Source of the DNA: Natronorubrum halophilum
GTDB lineage: Archaea; Halobacteriota; Halobacteria; Halobacteriales; Natrialbaceae
Direction of reading: 5' to 3'
NCBI RefSeq assembly: GCF_003670115.1
Contig: NZ_QQTY01000001.1
Location: forward strand, 496,001-560,000
DNA: 64,000 nucleotides
The notes below the pieces were generated by a model. That model saw only the letters and a list, made by a program, of their open reading frames with translations. It did not search any database and had not been told where the DNA came from. The position numbers were made by a program, and so were the translations under genes. Of the stretch, positions 24,704 through 34,309 are shown piece by piece; the stretch's first letter is position 1; each line of letters opens with the position of its first letter.

Positions 24704-27700
24704 TTATCCGGCGGGCGCTTCCGTTCCCGGATCCGAATCTCCACCCGATCCGGCGGGCTCGACGGGAGATTCCGTCTCGGTCGGCTCCGCAGGGTCGCCA
24801 GCGCCGTCGCCCTCGGGTTCTCCGAACGGCTCGTCGGTCGGATCCTCCGTGACGGGGTCATCAGGCGGTGACTCGTTGCCCGGTTCCGCTTCAGTACCGG
24901 GCTCGTCACCGGGGTCCTCCGCCGGCGGTTCATCGGTCGGCTCCTCCGTCGGCAACTCGTCGTCCGCCGGTTCTTCTTCGGCGGGGTCCGGCTCGTCGGC
25001 CGCTTCGATCGTCGCCGACGCCTGATCGTCGTCGGTCGCGATCGTATGCGTCGAGTCGTCCGCCGGCATCGTCGAGGAGAACGTCACCGTCTCGGATTCG
25101 TCGCTCTCGAGGTCGAGGGTCTCCTCGTCGATGTCCTGGCCGTCGACGCTGTAACTGACCGTCTGGGTTCCCTCGGACTCGCCCACGTTCTCGATCGTCG
25201 CGCTGACCGTCACTTCGTCGCCGGGCTCGGCCGTCTCGGGCGCGTCGAAGTCGGTGACGGCGAACTCGGGCTCGCCGGTCTCCTCGATCGTCACCGTCGT
25301 CTCGGCGGTCTCGTTCTCGCTCGAGACCTCGACCGGGTAGTCGCCGGGCTCGAGATCTTCGGTTTCCGCGGTCAGCGTGACGTCCTCGGTGGCCTCGGGT
25401 TCGAGCGAGACCGACTGTTCGTCGACGGTGTCACCGGCAACCGACAGCGAAACGTTCTGCGTGCCTTCCCCGTCGCCGACGTTCTCGATTGCGGCGTCCA
25501 CCTCGAGCGGCTCACCCTGCTCGACCGGATCGTTGGTGTCCGCGATCGAGACTGCGAACTCGGCGGGATCGGTCGGGGCGATCTCGCCGGCGGCGTCGGT
25601 TTGGGCGGGCGCTACCGCATCCTCATCGTAGTCGTAGAAGCTCATGTCGACCGCCCAGACGAGCCGTTCGTCGTCGTCCTCGGGCGTCCACTCGACGGTG
25701 AACGAGTTCGTTCCGGGCTCGAGTTCGTCGACCGGTTCGGCGGCGGTCGTCCCCTCGACGAACTCGCTGTCGACCAGCAGTTCGGCATCGTTCGGGTTGA
25801 TGTAGCCGAAGGTGACCTCGATGGCGTCCTCGGTCGGGGTCGTCTCCTCGACGGAGAGTTCGGGCAGTTCGGGTCGAACCGACTCGAGACAGTCGCCCGC
25901 ATCGGGGTTCGGATGGTCGATCGAGCCCGGCGTCGCGTCGGGCGAGGCGAAGCCGGTGATCGCAGCTCCGAAGTCGCCCCCGGGAACCGTCACGGTCGCG
26001 CCCTCGGCCGTTTCGTCGACGGCGAACTCGTCGCCGATTTCGTACGTAACCGTCCCCTCGAGCGGCGCCTCGACGTCCTCGCCAACCGTGATCGCGTACT
26101 CGCCCATCGTGTTGCCAAAGCCGCCCGATTGGTAGAACCCGGTGGCTACGATGATGGTATCGCCCTCCTCGAACGAGCCGGTTACCTCGGCCCGCGAGCA
26201 GTCGACGAAGGTCGCCTCGAACGTTTCGGGATCGCCGTCGACCGTGTACTCGATGGTCTCGCTCTCGAGGACGGCGCCAGCGCCGGTCCCGGTTTCGTTG
26301 GCACCGTCGTCGGCCGCCTCGACGGCCACCTCGAGCGTTGCGTTCTCCTCGAGCGGCGGCTCGAGGTCGAGCGACTCGAAAGCGACGGTCTCGTTCGCCT
26401 CGAACGGCCCGCTCTCAGCGAGTCGCTCGCCGTCCTCGTCGGTCGCGGTGAGGACGTACGCGACGTCGGCGTTCGCTTCCTCGACGGTCACCGTCTCGCC
26501 GTCGCCCGTCTGATCGGTCACGTTGAGCGTCGCGTTGGCATCGTCCGCGGGCGGCCCGTCTCCGTCCTCGAGTGCGTACTCGATTGACTCGTTCGCGAGC
26601 TCCGCACCGTCCTCGTCGACGACGGCAACGTCGACGGTCGCGTTCTCCTCGAGCGGCGGCTCGAGGTCGAGTTCGAGATCCGTAACCGTCTGGTTCGCCT
26701 CGAACGTCTCACTTTCGGCCTCGGTGCCGTCGGACGAAGCGGTGACGGTGTACTCGACGGGAGCGCCCGCCTCGTCCACCGCGAGCGTCTCGCCGTCACC
26801 CGCCTGGTCGGTCACCGAGAGGGTCGCATTGGCATCGTCCGGCTCGGCGGAGTCGCCGACGGTCACGAACGCCGTATCGAGGACCGGGGACCCGGCGGGG
26901 GTAACGTACGGATCGTCCTCAGCACCGTCGGACTCCGCGTACTGGAACGTCTCGTCGCCGGTCGTATCCCGGTGGACCACCGCGAGGAGCGGCTGCCCTT
27001 CCTCGAGCGGGTTCTCGAGTTCGATCTCGACGTCGTCGTGTTCGCCGCTCTCGAGGTAGTCGGACGAGCCGATCACGGTGGTCGGATCGGCGACGGAATC
27101 CCCGCCGTAGAGCGCCACGAAGCCGCCGTCGGAGAGATCGACGCTGTCGACGACGACGCTCTCGCCGTCGCTCTCCTGATCGGCGAACGTGATCGCCGCA
27201 GTGCCCTCGGGTTCGTCGACGGTCTCGATCCGCTGACTGATCTCGACCTCGAGGTACTGGTTGATCTCGGCGGGATCGTCGATCCCTTCCTGAATCGCGT
27301 ACTCGGTGGCGTCGGTCGCGGCCTCCTCGGTCAGGATCTGCAACTGCGAGACGCTGATCCGCTGATACTGTACGGCCCTCGCCGTCTCCTCGCAGGCCCC
27401 GCGGGCCGCGATCTGAATCTGCTCGACGGTCGCCTCCTGGTACTGGACCAGCGCGCCGCTCGCTCCGCCGGTCGCGAGCGTCTGGACCTGCGTGACGTCG
27501 ACGATCTGCTTCTGGATCACCGCCCCTCCGCCGGCGCCGTACGCCGCGGCCTGAATCTGCGTCACCTCGACGTTCTGGTACTGGATCGCCGACTGGATCG
27601 CACCCTCCGACGCGCCGATGGCGGCGTGTTGGATCTGCGTGATCGAGATCCCCTGTTGCTGGACGAGGACGCCACCCGCAGCCCCGTCGGCTGCGGCCTG

Positions 27701-28885
27701 AATCTGCTCGACCGTGGCCGCCTGACTCTGCGTGATCGAACCCGTGGCCGCACCGAAAGAGGCCTCCTGAATCTGCGTGATCGAGATGCGCTGGACCTGT
27801 TCGACGCTCACGGACTGAACCTGTTTCAACGACCCCCTGCTCGCGCCGTGCGCTGCGGATTGGGTCTGCTCGACGCTCACCTCCTGTCGCTGGACGAGCG
27901 CCCCCTTCGCGGCACCCGTCGCGGCCTTCTGTACCTGCTTGATGTCCACCCGCTGGCGCTGTTCGACCTCGACACGCTGATCCTGCTCGAGCGCGGCTTC
28001 GGTGGTCCCCTCGAGTGCGCCGGCCGACGCCCCTGCCGCGGCGTACTGGACGTGTTCGAGCGTTACCTGCTGGCGCTGTTCGACCGTGATCTGCTGGTAC
28101 TGCTCGAGGACGCCGTAGGACGCGCCCTGTGCGGCCTCCTGAATCGTCGGCGCGTCGGTAACGTTCTCGTCGCCGGCCTCGCTGGCGGCCCCGGCAGCGC
28201 CACCGCGGGTCGCGACCTGAATCTGCTCGACGGTCGCGCGTTGTTCCTGTGCGACCGCGCCGTGGGTCGCGCCCCAGGTCGCGCTTTGCATCTGGCTCGC
28301 GGTGACCGTCTGGTGTTGAGAGAGCGCCCCGTCGGTCGCCCCGTCGACCGCGTACTGGATCTGTTCGACCTCGACTCGCTGTTCCTGTATCAGCGAGCCG
28401 TGGACCGCCCCTTTCGTCGCCTCCTGGACCTGCTCGACCTCGGCTTCCTGGTGTTGGGCGACCGACTCGCTCGCCCCCTCGATCGCCGCCGCTCGCTGCT
28501 CTTGCGTGACCTCGACGCCCTGGGACTGAACCAGTTCGATTCCCTCGTCGACGCCGGCCTCGACGGCGTCTTCCTGCTGGGTCGAGAGCGACGCCCGCGC
28601 ATTCGCCTCGGCTGTCGGCTCCAGAGACGCTAACTCGACGCTCTCCGCGACGCCCGTCCCACCGGCATCCATCTCGCCGCCGCCCGCACCGCTCTCATCA
28701 GCATCGGTCTCCGGTGGCGACTCACCGCCAGCGGCTGGGTCCCCCTCGGCCGAAGTATCGGCTTCCGCTCCGCTATCGTCGTTCTGGGCGATACCGCCGC
28801 CGAGCATCGGCAGTGCCAGTACGCTCGTGACCATCAGAAACGCGACGACGAGCGTCCCAGCGACTGCACCTCGCCCGCGATTCAT
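24704..28885 (-). CDS. Large secreted surface protein with Gln-rich 23-residue repeats, DUF7282-like and CARDB domains
   Basis: 1,393 residues from MNRGRGAVAGTLVVAFLMVT (ATG 28885), a Sec-type signal ending near GGGIAQ. About residues 90-550 consist of about 16 repeats with consensus VEVEQIQxAAxGAxxGALxQ, some with an extra 8-residue VEQRQRV half unit. A DUF7282-like beta domain follows (about 560-675, FADQESDGESVVVDSVDLSD), then two similar beta domains (about 685-880, each with TGDGET and EPPLEENAT). Two CARDB-like domains (about 1108-1295, AIENVGDGEGTQNVSLSV) precede a Pro/Glu/Asp-rich tail. No PGF-CTERM or C-terminal membrane helix is seen, so it is secreted or held non-covalently. Its function is unknown; an adhesin or matrix protein is inference. 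Confidence 0.88.
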   Translation of the reverse strand: MNRGRGAVAGTLVVAFLMVTSVLALPMLGGGIAQNDDSGAEADTSAEGDPAAGGESPPETDADESGAGGGEMDAGGTGVAESVELASLEPTAEANARASLSTQQEDAVEAGVDEGIELVQSQGVEVTQEQRAAAIEGASESVAQHQEAEVEQVQEATKGAVHGSLIQEQRVEVEQIQYAVDGATDGALSQHQTVTASQMQSATWGATHGAVAQEQRATVEQIQVATRGGAAGAASEAGDENVTDAPTIQEAAQGASYGVLEQYQQITVEQRQQVTLEHVQYAAAGASAGALEGTTEAALEQDQRVEVEQRQRVDIKQVQKAATGAAKGALVQRQEVSVEQTQSAAHGASRGSLKQVQSVSVEQVQRISITQIQEASFGAATGSITQSQAATVEQIQAAADGAAGGVLVQQQGISITQIQHAAIGASEGAIQSAIQYQNVEVTQIQAAAYGAGGGAVIQKQIVDVTQVQTLATGGASGALVQYQEATVEQIQIAARGACEETARAVQYQRISVSQLQILTEEAATDATEYAIQEGIDDPAEINQYLEVEISQRIETVDEPEGTAAITFADQESDGESVVVDSVDLSDGGFVALYGGDSVADPTTVIGSSDYLESGEHDDVEIELENPLEEGQPLLAVVHRDTTGDETFQYAESDGAEDDPYVTPAGSPVLDTAFVTVGDSAEPDDANATLSVTDQAGDGETLAVDEAGAPVEYTVTASSDGTEAESETFEANQTVTDLELDLEPPLEENATVDVAVVDEDGAELANESIEYALEDGDGPPADDANATLNVTDQTGDGETVTVEEANADVAYVLTATDEDGERLAESGPFEANETVAFESLDLEPPLEENATLEVAVEAADDGANETGTGAGAVLESETIEYTVDGDPETFEATFVDCSRAEVTGSFEEGDTIIVATGFYQSGGFGNTMGEYAITVGEDVEAPLEGTVTYEIGDEFAVDETAEGATVTVPGGDFGAAITGFASPDATPGSIDHPNPDAGDCLESVRPELPELSVEETTPTEDAIEVTFGYINPNDAELLVDSEFVEGTTAAEPVDELEPGTNSFTVEWTPEDDDERLVWAVDMSFYDYDEDAVAPAQTDAAGEIAPTDPAEFAVSIADTNDPVEQGEPLEVDAAIENVGDGEGTQNVSLSVAGDTVDEQSVSLEPEATEDVTLTAETEDLEPGDYPVEVSSENETAETTVTIEETGEPEFAVTDFDAPETAEPGDEVTVSATIENVGESEGTQTVSYSVDGQDIDEETLDLESDESETVTFSSTMPADDSTHTIATDDDQASATIEAADEPDPAEEEPADDELPTEEPTDEPPAEDPGDEPGTEAEPGNESPPDDPVTEDPTDEPFGEPEGDGAGDPAEPTETESPVEPAGSGGDSDPGTEAPAG
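27230..28575 (-). repeat. Coding repeat array: about 16 units of a 23-residue Q-x-Q motif
   Basis: In the translated frame the units share [V/T]-x-x-Q-[I/V]-Q, then A-A/T-x-G-A-x-x-G-A/S-L, then x-Q-x-Q. Examples are EVEQIQYAVDGATDGALSQH, SITQIQEASFGAATGSITQS and EVTQIQAAAYGAGGGAVIQK. The spacing is mostly 69 bases. Three units carry an extra 8-residue Q-x-Q block. DNA identity between units is modest, so the array is old rather than freshly duplicated. Confidence 0.85.
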
Positions 28886-29364
28886 GGCTCGACTCCGCCG
28901 TGTCCGCTGTGCTCGACTCCGCTGTGTGTGGTGATCGCCGCGCGCGAACTCCGATCGAAGCCCCCAGTTACCCGAATCGATCGACGTCCCCGGTTTGTCC
29001 TGCGGCCCCTTCGTGTTCCGGACGGTGTACTCACGGATGGCATCGGTTCTCAAGGCGGGGGCCGAACGAGCGCATAAGGACCGATGGTTGTTTCGGTTAG
29101 TAACCGGATACAATACCCGATTACGTTCCTCGAATCGGAGCGCTTCGGACTCCCATCGCATGGCGTGAGCACTGGTAACGAATCGAAACGCTGAACGCAC
29201 GATCGACTCGAGCACCCCGATCGGCGACACGAAGCGAACTGTTTCGCCCCGTTCTGGCGGCGCCGGCGTTCGTCTCGAGCGGCCGAAAATGCGAACGTGA
29301 CTAGCGATTGTCTCTCACCTCGGAAACCGAAGTGTTGAACAGGGTTTACGGGAGAGTCGGTCGT
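28886..29364. other. Divergent intergenic region between the repeat protein and bioY
   Basis: About 480 bases. The frame of the surface protein stays open upstream of 28885, but the extra 115 residues are basic, lack the acidic bias and precede a perfect signal peptide, so they are not coding. No RNA gene is visible. An AT-richer block at about 29080-29130 may hold the promoter of the surface protein. The region just before bioY contains GTGTTGAACAGGGTTTAC (29330-29347), a weakly palindromic candidate operator. Confidence 0.4.
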
Positions 29365-29952
29365 ATGGAAACGGAACGGGACGCGGTCGAACTCGTCGAG
29401 GGGGATGTCGTCCGGCAATTCGCTCGCGCAGCGGTGCTCGCGGCGCTGCTCGGGGCGATCGGGCCGGTGTCGGTACCGATACCGCTATCGCCGGCACCGG
29501 TCACGCTGCAGGTGCTGTTCGTCTTCCTCGCCGGCCTCGTTCTGGGGCCGGTCTGGGGGACCGTCTCGATGGTCCTCTATCTCACCGCCGGCGCTATCGG
29601 GCTCCCCGTCTTTTCGGGCTGGGAAGCCGGAATCGGTTCCCTGTTCGGAAACACTGGGGGCTATCTCTGGTCGTACCCGTTCGCCGCCGCGCTGATCGGA
29701 TTCGTCGTCCATCGCGGAACCGACCTCCGAGACCCCGCCGATGTCCCGTTTCCGATCGTCGTCGGGGCCCTGCTGATGGCGACGATACTCATCTACGGCA
29801 TGGGAACGGGGTACGCGGCCTGGCTCCTTGATCTCGAGCCGTGGGAGGCGATCGCTGGCTACGCGCTCCCCTTCGTCCCCGGCGAAGTGCTCAAGATGGC
29901 CGCCGCGATCGCCATCGTCCAGAGCGGTCGGCTCGAACCGATCAGATCCTGA
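29365..29952 (+). CDS. bioY: Biotin-specific ECF transporter S component BioY
   Basis: 195 residues from METERDAVELVEGDVVRQFA (ATG 29365). Six helices are visible. BioY motifs present: VPIPLSPAPVTLQVLFVFLA, followed by GLVLGPVWGTVSMVLYLTAG and FSGWEAGIGSLFGNTGGYLW, containing the biotin-binding and G-rich loops. BioY captures biotin in the membrane and docks on the EcfA/EcfT module encoded by the next two genes. Three bases separate it from the ATPase gene. Confidence 0.94.
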   Translation: METERDAVELVEGDVVRQFARAAVLAALLGAIGPVSVPIPLSPAPVTLQVLFVFLAGLVLGPVWGTVSMVLYLTAGAIGLPVFSGWEAGIGSLFGNTGGYLWSYPFAAALIGFVVHRGTDLRDPADVPFPIVVGALLMATILIYGMGTGYAAWLLDLEPWEAIAGYALPFVPGEVLKMAAAIAIVQSGRLEPIRS

Positions 29953-29955
29953 CCG

Positions 29956-30657
29956 ATGATCGAATTTTGCGCCGTCTCGTACGCGTTCGACGACGTGCCC
30001 GTCCTCGAGGACGTCTCGCTCGCGATCGACGACGGCGAGTTCGTCGTCCTCGCCGGGGCTAACGGAAGCGGGAAGACGACGCTGTTGCGCCACTGCAACG
30101 GCCTGCTGTCGCCGGACTCCGGCGACGTGCTGGTCAACGGGACGCCCGTCGAGGCCGACCTCATCGCCGCCCGCTCGAGCGTCGGCATGGTCTTTCAACA
30201 CCCGCGCGACCAGTTCGTCGCCGCGACGGTCGGTGCCGACGTGGCCTTCGGCCCCGAAAACCTCGGCCTCGAGCGCGAGGAGATCGATCGACGGGTCGGG
30301 GCCGCCCTCGAGGCGGTGAACTTGGCGGGTCGCGAGACCGAACGGATCGACGCCCTTTCGGGCGGCGAACAGTCCCGCGTGGCCATCGCGGGCGCGCTCG
30401 CGATGGAACCGACACACCTCGTCCTCGACGAACCGTTCACCGGGCTCGACGAGCCCGCCCGGCGATCCGTGCTCTCGCGCCTCGAGTCCCTCGCCGCCGG
30501 GGGGACCGGCGTCCTGCTCGCGACGCACGACCTTCGAGACGTGCTCGGACTCGCCGATCGCGTCGTCGCCATGGGAGACGGCCGCGTCGTCGTCGACGAG
30601 CCCCCGGAGCGCGCGCTCGAGCAACTCGCCGGACTCGAGGTACGGGTTCCCGAATGA
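29956..30657 (+). CDS. bioM: ECF transporter ATPase (BioM/EcfA-like)
   Basis: 233 residues, an ABC ATPase. Walker A GANGSGKTTLLRH, Q-loop MVFQHPRDQFVAATVGADVA, signature LSGGEQSRVAIAGALAMEPT, Walker B HLVLDEPFTGLD, and switch His in LLATHDLRDV are all intact. The NPD or HPRDQ Q-loop style is typical of ECF ATPases. It energises biotin uptake with BioY and the T subunit. The stop TGA overlaps the ATG of a 17-codon mini-ORF leading to the T-subunit gene. Confidence 0.94.
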   Translation: MIEFCAVSYAFDDVPVLEDVSLAIDDGEFVVLAGANGSGKTTLLRHCNGLLSPDSGDVLVNGTPVEADLIAARSSVGMVFQHPRDQFVAATVGADVAFGPENLGLEREEIDRRVGAALEAVNLAGRETERIDALSGGEQSRVAIAGALAMEPTHLVLDEPFTGLDEPARRSVLSRLESLAAGGTGVLLATHDLRDVLGLADRVVAMGDGRVVVDEPPERALEQLAGLEVRVPE

Positions 30658-30707
30658 CCGAGACCGAACGGCCACCAGCGCCGGACCGGGTGCGTTCACA
30701 ATGTTAA
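30654..30707 (+). CDS. 17-codon relay mini-ORF between the ECF ATPase and T-subunit genes
   Basis: Starts in the ATGA at the ATPase stop and ends with TAA at 30705-30707, seven bases into the T-subunit gene whose ATG is at 30701. The peptide MTETERPPAPDRVRSQC has no domain. It would place a terminating ribosome at the next start codon. Expression is unproven. Confidence 0.35.
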   Translation: MTETERPPAPDRVRSQC

Positions 30708-31405
30708 CCTACGATCCCGACGACACGCTCGCCCACCGGCTCGACCCCCGCTCGAAGCTGGCGCTCCAGATCGGGTTCGCCGCGACCGCGCTGGCACACA
30801 CTAGCCTGCGGGCGCTGCTCGTCCTCTCCGCGGTGACCGCGGTCGTCCTCCTCGTCGCTCGAGTGCCGCTGCTCGAGGCGCTCTCCGCTTATCGGTTCGC
30901 GCTGGTCTTTCTCGCGCTTGCGCCGCTGCTCGCGGGGCTCACGTTCGGCTCGCCGTGGTTCGATCTCGCGGACGCCGGCACCTCCGCGCGAGCGAGCTAC
31001 CGGGTGTTGCTCATCCTCCTGGTCAGCGCCGCCTACATCCGATCGACGCCGGTTCGCGCGTCTCGAGCCGCGATCCAGCGGACGATTCCCGGCAAACCCG
31101 GCCAGCTACTCGGCGTCGGCGTCGCGCTCGTCTTTCGGTTCCTCCCCGTCCTCCAAGCCGACCTCCGGACCATCCGCGACGCGATGGCGGCCCGTCTCGG
31201 AGACGAGCGCGGGGCCGTCGACCGCGCCAGCACGCTGGGACTGCTCGGACTCTCGAGGGCGTTCGATCGGGCCGATCGACTCGCGCTCGCGCTGCAAGCG
31301 CGGTGTTTCGCCTGGAATCCCACCCTCCCCCCGCTATCGTTTTCGCGACTCGACTACCCCGTGTTCGGGGTGGCCGTCGCGTTCGTGATCTCGGCGGCGC
31401 TCTGA
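30701..31405 (+). CDS. bioN: ECF transporter transmembrane (T) component (BioN/EcfT-like)
   Basis: 234 residues with five or six helices. The opening DDTLAHRLDPRSKLALQIGF is the conserved EcfT N-terminus. The coupling-helix motifs are AMAARLGDERGAVDRAS and ALALQARCFAW, corresponding to the two Arg-containing ARG-like signatures that contact the ATPases. Together with bioY and bioM it completes a biotin importer. Its start overlaps the end of the mini-ORF. It converges on the flavoprotein gene at 31628. Confidence 0.9.
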   Translation: MLTYDPDDTLAHRLDPRSKLALQIGFAATALAHTSLRALLVLSAVTAVVLLVARVPLLEALSAYRFALVFLALAPLLAGLTFGSPWFDLADAGTSARASYRVLLILLVSAAYIRSTPVRASRAAIQRTIPGKPGQLLGVGVALVFRFLPVLQADLRTIRDAMAARLGDERGAVDRASTLGLLGLSRAFDRADRLALALQARCFAWNPTLPPLSFSRLDYPVFGVAVAFVISAAL

Positions 31406-33880: not shown

Positions 33881-34236
33881 CTGTCCGGAACACTATTCTA
33901 GAGCACAATAATCGATACGACCCGTTTCGAATTCGCGGGCAGCGAGGTCGGAACGAGTGATGGGATTTCCCGTAGGCAAACACCCCGCTGGGGCGCAAAA
34001 GCGTTCCGAGAGAGCGAACACCGATCTCTACGAGCGTATTCAGGTGTCTCCCTGTTCGGCGGGGGAGATCGAAGGAATTGCCTGGAACCTCAAGAACGTC
34101 TTCGCTGCTCGTGAGTTTGCTCGCAGTAGAAGAAGCCGGTGGAGGGGGTGTGAACCACGGTCGCAGCGAAGCTGCTCCTGATTCAAATCCCTCCAGCGCG
34201 TATTCGCTGCTCGTGAGTTTGCTCGCAGTAGAAGAA
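33881..34236. other. Intergenic region with tRNA-derived repeats
   Basis: About 355 bases between the ParB-like gene and the 3' end of tRNA-Thr. The right part (from 34103) is filled by a duplicated piece of the tRNA 3' end and its flank. The left part (33881-34100) has no gene that looks coding; a 74-codon plus-strand ORF there is basic and without similarity that I can see. Confidence 0.5.
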
Positions 34237-34248
34237 GCCGGTGGAGGG
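34103..34248. repeat. 46-bp direct repeat including the tRNA-Thr 3' end, period exactly 100 bp
   Basis: Positions 34103-34148 and 34203-34248 are identical: they start TTCGCTGCTCGTGAGTTTGC and end GCCGGTGGAGGG. The second copy includes the last 12 bases of the tRNA (34237-34248) plus its 3' flank. Between the copies, 34184-34197 reads TTCAAATCCCTCCA, a 14-base match to the tRNA T-arm region in the opposite orientation. Partial tRNA 3'-end duplication is the usual footprint of tyrosine-recombinase integration, but no integrase is visible in the window. Confidence 0.75.
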
Positions 34249-34309
34249 ATTTGAACCCTCGACCTAATCCTTACGAAGGATTCGCTCTGCCAGTCTGAGC
34301 TACACCGGC
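34237..34309 (-). tRNA. tRNA-Thr (anticodon CGT)
   Basis: The minus strand folds into a complete cloverleaf. The acceptor is GCCGGTG with CACCGGC, D-arm GCTC/GAGC, and the anticodon stem AATCC/GGATT encloses the loop TTCGTAA, giving anticodon CGU (codon ACG). The T-arm is GAGGG-TTCAAAT-CCCTC. CCA is not encoded. No intron is present. Its 3' end is partially duplicated downstream. Confidence 0.95.

Follow-up and report, generated by a model that had tools for sequence, protein, structure and literature searches.

A conserved 23-residue Gln-pair repeat array in a putatively secreted haloarchaeal protein is predicted to form a chain of small helices

The stretch of DNA analysed here (64,000 nucleotides, hereafter the window) lies in the 4.67-Mb genome of Natronorubrum halophilum (contig NZ_QQTY01000001.1, positions 496,001 to 560,000) and carries on its minus strand (28885..24704) an open reading frame (ORF) of 1393 amino acids plus stop, whose putatively secreted product bears in its N-terminal part an array of 23-residue units marked by pairs of Gln residues. 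This ORF is a real gene, and purifying selection supports its being coding. In structure prediction, the units of the array resemble small Ala/Gly helices strung together and not an amyloid-like ladder. We propose, with about an even chance of being right, that the array forms a helical-repeat head at the N-terminus of a surface or matrix protein of haloarchaea, where it would serve as a rigid scaffold for binding or assembly, a function that we infer.

The array comprises 16 units, counting a degenerate one at about residues 239-261. Specifically, the Gln pairs, spaced as Q-x-Q, fall at residues 120/128, 144/152, 167/175, 190/198, 213/221, 262/270, 301/309/317, 332/340, 355/363/371, 386/394, 409/417, 435/443, 458/466, 481/489 and 506/514, and autocorrelation of the sequence gives an identity of 0.239 at lag 23, against mostly 0.06-0.12 at unrelated lags. 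An earlier note on this DNA had described about 16 such repeats with three extra eight-residue Q-x-Q blocks at residues 90-550; the count and the three blocks hold (residues 262-269, 301-308 and 355-362), and the array proper is narrower, spanning residues 120-528. The consensus of 515 distinct units of relatives reads Q1 x Q3 x V5 x V7 x Q9 I10 Q11 x A13 A14 x G16 A17 A18 x G20 A21 L22 x, or QxQxVxVxQIQxAAxGAAxGALx in one line, where the search pattern used to collect the units itself fixed Q1, Q9/H9 and Q11. Searches of Pfam, NCBIfam and PDB sequences returned nothing credible for the repeat, and no description of it was found in an open-access literature library; the Gln-pair head falls under no Pfam or NCBIfam model tried. 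Among the candidates set aside, Gly-zipper_YMGG matched only 3 of 30 members (best E 0.003), and neither SNARE (E 0.57) nor PDB entry 3dgt (E 0.33) is a credible relative.

The array is strongly conserved. The domain occurs in 104 of 125 genomes of the same family (94 of the 111 near-complete ones) and in 122 of 392 genomes of an order sample that includes this family; several Natronorubrum species have homologues, so the earlier note's proviso that homologues might be confined to one strain does not apply. Against five relatives, the domain aligns over 469 codons with zero gaps, and the ratio of nonsynonymous to synonymous substitution rates of the array (0.16-0.26) is generally the lowest among the well-aligned parts, compared with 0.40-0.62 for the DUF7282 domain. 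Across the family, units resemble their positional counterparts (similarity 0.73) much more than other units (0.43), the positional counterpart being the best-matching unit in 503 of 554 cases. The Q-x-Q spacing recurs across the family with its irregularities, and other haloarchaeal families share those of 18 and 17 residues close to the end of the array. With this gapless alignment, low substitution ratio, positional orthology and kept spacing, the array is an old, frozen set of specialised units and not a fast-changing one. Such unit-by-unit conservation across a haloarchaeal family, in a domain shared by others, speaks for a genuine and perhaps important role at the cell surface in hypersaline life.

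A scan for short peptide patterns, by which distant relatives could be missed, covered some 85,000 species of bacteria and archaea and retrieved 68 loci, all haloarchaeal. No relatives were found in viral contigs or phage records, and the two plasmid records that carry relatives are both haloarchaeal. A candidate from another family of the phylum (G697, profile E 4e-5) was rejected as a Lys/Glu/Ala-rich helical protein without Q-x-Q. Two genera, g2 (G001-G006, 0 of 6) and g11 (G029-G033, 0 of 5), are without the domain, which is otherwise nearly universal in the same family, and they offer a natural phenotype comparison.

AlphaFold2 was run on residues 92-562 of the Natronorubrum protein with an alignment of 49 sequences, and on the array of a distant Haladaptatus homologue, about 51% identical, with an alignment of 33 sequences. 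In the Natronorubrum model, each unit consists of one helix of about 16 residues and an extended link of about seven residues, with no beta ladder, and the predicted local distance difference test (pLDDT) is mostly >90 over roughly the first seven units; model residues 11-30 (protein residues 102-121) form a lead-in helix before the array. The Haladaptatus model is helical throughout and confident over most of the array, with pLDDT 87.4 and a predicted template modelling score of 0.89. Both models, as predictions, thus show tandem units with at least one helix each, in the manner of alpha-helical repeats in the broad sense. In line with these models, the sequences alone show a charge periodicity in unit positions 7-23 that peaks at 100 degrees per residue (permutation p = 0.005), whereas positions 1-7 peak at 180 degrees, as in an extended strand; therefore, the unit would consist of an extended link and an amphipathic helix. 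Charged residues in the helix positions are nearly confined to positions 8, 12, 15, 19 and 23, which form one face of the helical wheel.

Several observations weigh against this picture. In the Natronorubrum model, pLDDT is only 31-60 over a large part of the C-terminal half; only one model of five per run was confident (75.8 versus 69.9-48.1, and 87.4 versus 62.5-36.8); and the two alignments are shallow and self-similar. Unlike charge, sequence entropy alternates in a strand-like manner through position 11. Foldseek and VIA gave no credible fold match, the hits being generic helical repeats, designed proteins and channel helices with low TM-scores or high root-mean-square deviation (rmsd). 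Additionally, the surface location of the head, its assembly and any ligand are putative.

The topology of the helical chain may be approached from its dimensions. A 16-residue helix (about 24 Å) and a seven-residue extended link (about 23 Å) are about equally long, as would be in keeping with a solenoid whose helices run parallel. Alternating helix directions would instead agree with a weak super-period of two units (46 residues), which family profiles show (P 0.006 and 0.019) and a single Haladaptatus sequence does not (P 0.72). The fold-search matches are mainly up-and-down helical proteins, with TM-scores and rmsd too poor to discriminate between the two; the best, to 8ugc, reach Z 12.1 (rmsd 9.2 Å, 290 aligned) and Z 7.9 (rmsd 11.4 Å, 269 aligned) with low TM-scores. 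The fold of the array may already be known.

We propose that the protein would be exported to the cell surface or the extracellular matrix, and that each 23-residue unit would form an Ala/Gly-zipper helix (positions ~7-22) and an extended Gln-pair link (positions 23 and 1-6). The helices may pack closely via the invariant G16/A17/G20/A13/Q9 face, so that about 16-17 of them would form a rigid head in which the invariant Gln side chains probably bridge adjacent links and helices; the outward, variable and sometimes charged positions 2, 4, 6, 8, 12, 15, 19 and 23 would make up an elongated surface for binding or assembly. A stalk that is acidic and exchangeable (DUF7282, CARDB, thrombospondin type 3 (TSP3) repeats or others) would hold this head off the cell, or carry it into the matrix where no anchor is present, so that the protein might play an adhesin-like or matrix scaffold role. 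We consider it possible, but rather doubtful, that the array is a haloarchaea-specific fold with a Gly-zipper helix and a Gln-ladder link per unit, forming a rigid, near-neutral or basic, salt-stable rod that serves as an exchangeable head. If so, a rod confined to haloarchaea and stable in saturated salt would represent an extracellular architecture absent from solved structures.

The composition of the array sets it apart from the remainder of the protein. The net charge per 100 residues in the Natronorubrum protein is -6.6 in the array versus -27.6 in the remainder, which bears out the earlier suspicion that such an array is out of keeping with an acidic secretome, and the array is less acidic than the remainder in every comparable homologue, usually by a wide margin. 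Its isoelectric point (pI) is about 11-12 in Haladaptatus and Halomicrococcus, 9.2-12 across these, some Halorussus and some Natrinema, and 4.5, mildly acidic, in Natronorubrum. A weakly acidic or basic array is unusual for an exported haloarchaeal domain, and the low acidity is consistent with a surface that is tightly packed and rich in Gln, or with a role in binding polyanions or membranes. Because it breaks the expectation of strongly acidic secreted haloarchaeal domains, its structure could reveal another route to folding in high salt. The basic arrays, placed beside acidic stalks, would agree with a head that binds acidic exopolysaccharide, S-layer glycan or extracellular DNA via its outward positions; charge attraction would not serve every member, given the mildly acidic array of Natronorubrum, and we regard this alternative as improbable. 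Slightly less probable again are low-charge Ala/Gly helices that lie on or in the archaeal membrane or vesicles after export. The low acidity of the array, basic in several relatives, the few Gly-zipper_YMGG matches and short model segments that align with helices of AmtB/Rh and urea channels all point that way, but helices of about 16 residues with Gln and charges have neither the length nor the apolar character needed to cross a membrane, the channel-helix matches have low Z, and N-glycosylation sequons in the links of some relatives suggest exposure to solvent.

Least probable is the beta-strand stacking put forward by the earlier note, in which QxQxVxVxQ strands would stack in register into a solenoid or amyloid-like ladder and polymerise into matrix fibres like curli: strict in/out alternation at unit positions 1-11 and the resemblance of Q-x-V-x-V-x-Q to the curlin kernel N-x-Psi-x-Psi-x-Q, in repeats that are also about 23 residues long (PMC10192328), speak for it, yet AlphaFold2, which is reported to model curlin repeats as beta-solenoids (mean pLDDT 83; PMC10192328), predicts helices in both of these divergent proteins, charges are spaced i, i+3/i+4 in half of the unit, the protein and 30 homologous domains have no curlin match in Pfam, and the array has fixed length and ends and specialised units. 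On account of the two helical predictions, the charge periodicity and the beta-solenoid models of curlin, stacked beta strands are thus unlikely. A confident helical prediction was what the earlier note had named as speaking against its proposal, and the outcome largely agrees with this, save for the low pLDDT in the second half of the array.

The helical-repeat head that we favour is followed by modules of a different kind (Table 1). The N-terminus of the protein is hydrophobic by inspection, in the manner of a cleaved signal or an uncleaved anchor, and the protein is thus probably secreted; the earlier note had it as a giant secreted protein, and at 1393 residues it is large rather than giant. 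DUF7282 is clearly assigned (124.6 bits against a cut-off of 27). Of the extracellular beta domains that the note placed behind the array, DUF7282 and CARDB are recognised by Pfam, whereas residues 676-1205 have no match in a Pfam scan of the protein. Two similar acidic segments begin within this region at about residues 685 and 783, and it holds two Cys residues (894 and 998), unusual for a Cys-poor protein. As the note also held, the tail is acidic and carries neither a hydrophobic segment nor a PGF-CTERM anchor: the Natronorubrum protein has no C-terminal transmembrane segment and no NCBIfam sorting-model match that would mark it for an archaeosortase.

Table 1. Features of the repeat gene and its conserved neighbours, with positions in the window
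Feature	Position	Strand	Basis
Complete gene, 1393-residue putatively secreted repeat protein	24704..28885	-	ORF, translation, purifying selection, kept in 104/125 family genomes
N-terminal hydrophobic signal sequence MNRGRGAVAGTLVVAFLMVTSVLALPMLGGGIAQN, residues 1-35	28781..28885	-	read by eye; hydrophobic N-termini in nearly all relatives
Acidic low-complexity linker and lead-in helix, residues 36-119	28529..28780	-	27.4% Asp + Glu; AlphaFold2 helix
Array, 16 units of ~23 residues, residues 120-528	27302..28528	-	spacing, autocorrelation, unit statistics, AlphaFold2 one helix per unit
Extra octad QYQQITVE, residues 262-269	28079..28102	-	QxQ spacing
Extra octad QDQRVEVE, residues 301-308	27962..27985	-	QxQ spacing; AlphaFold2 3-residue strand at its end
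Extra octad QVQSVSVE, residues 355-362	27800..27823	-	QxQ spacing; AlphaFold2 3-residue strand within
DUF7282, residues 563-675	26861..27199	-	Pfam PF23951, E 2.7e-36
Acidic region, residues 676-1205	25271..26860	-	sequence only
CARDB domain, residues 1206-1288	25022..25270	-	Pfam PF07705, E 9.4e-11
Acidic Pro-rich tail, residues 1293-1393 and stop	24704..25009	-	sequence; no hydrophobic anchor
Divergent bioY, ABC ATPase and CbiQ/EcfT genes, family-conserved neighbour	29308..31405	+	Pfam; synteny

In relatives, some of them in other haloarchaeal families, what comes after the array varies: DUF7282 repeats, TSP3 repeats, a right-handed beta-helix, a carboxypeptidase-regulatory domain or Thr-rich sequence. 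Such an exchange of stalks is a pattern of surface or secreted proteins. TSP3 repeats, a calcium-binding module in other proteins, form the stalk under the repeat head at L151 (5761-11154, +), L159 (5815-10101, +) and L094. Some relatives end, by eye, in a hydrophobic stretch and an Arg-rich tail; among six with such ends, no NCBIfam sorting-signal model matched. Matches of relatives to CglD/MtsD lie far below the cut-offs and are probably due to the TSP3 stalks. Smaller Natrialbaceae paralogues (L086:5215-6729 (+), L087, L088, L089 and L090) carry a related, shorter Q-x-Q array, and four of the five have a Tat-type-looking N-terminus, for example RRTLLAGTGAVLA and RRAMLCGIGSAS; therefore, the repeat may also serve proteins exported by a different route. 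The repeats of the relatives L046, L047, L048 and L049 contain N-x-S/T sequons at 2.6-3.4 per 100 residues, mostly at unit positions 4, 6 and 12, and the Natronorubrum array contains one. It is possible that the links are N-glycosylated in some lineages.

The bioY-ecfA-ecfT genes adjoin the repeat gene at 19 of 20 loci inspected within the family. Elsewhere, no such arrangement was found, and the biotin transporter is probably no more than a neighbour by position. The sole RNA gene found within the window is a tRNA-Thr (CGT; 34236-34309, minus strand).

Several known systems invite comparison with the array. Alpha-solenoids and designed repeats (8ugc, the DHR series and TALE), its top structural neighbours, share tandem helices in a one-dimensional array, whereas in the array a single helix recurs every 23 residues, together with an extended Q-x-Q link that is conserved; Foldseek TM-scores of 0.1-0.25 and VIA rmsd of 9-11 Å give no fold assignment, and no sequence relation was found. 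The PC repeats of proteasomal Rpn1/Rpn2 are Gly/Ala-rich packed helices; matches to them (VIA Z 4.3-5.5, rmsd 13-15 Å) are at noise level, again with no sequence relation found. The curlin repeat proteins CsgA/CsgB resemble the array in export, repeats of about 23 residues, conserved Gln and alternating small and aliphatic residues, but the array differs by its lack of a curlin match in Pfam, its predicted helix, its amphipathic charge in positions 7-23 and its fixed length. A further comparison is with haloarchaeal surface proteins with DUF7282, CARDB or TSP3 stalks, with which the protein shares a signal sequence and acidic extracellular modules and some array relatives share a C-terminal hydrophobic segment with an Arg-rich end; the Natronorubrum protein differs from them by the absence of a C-terminal anchor and by its Gln-pair head.

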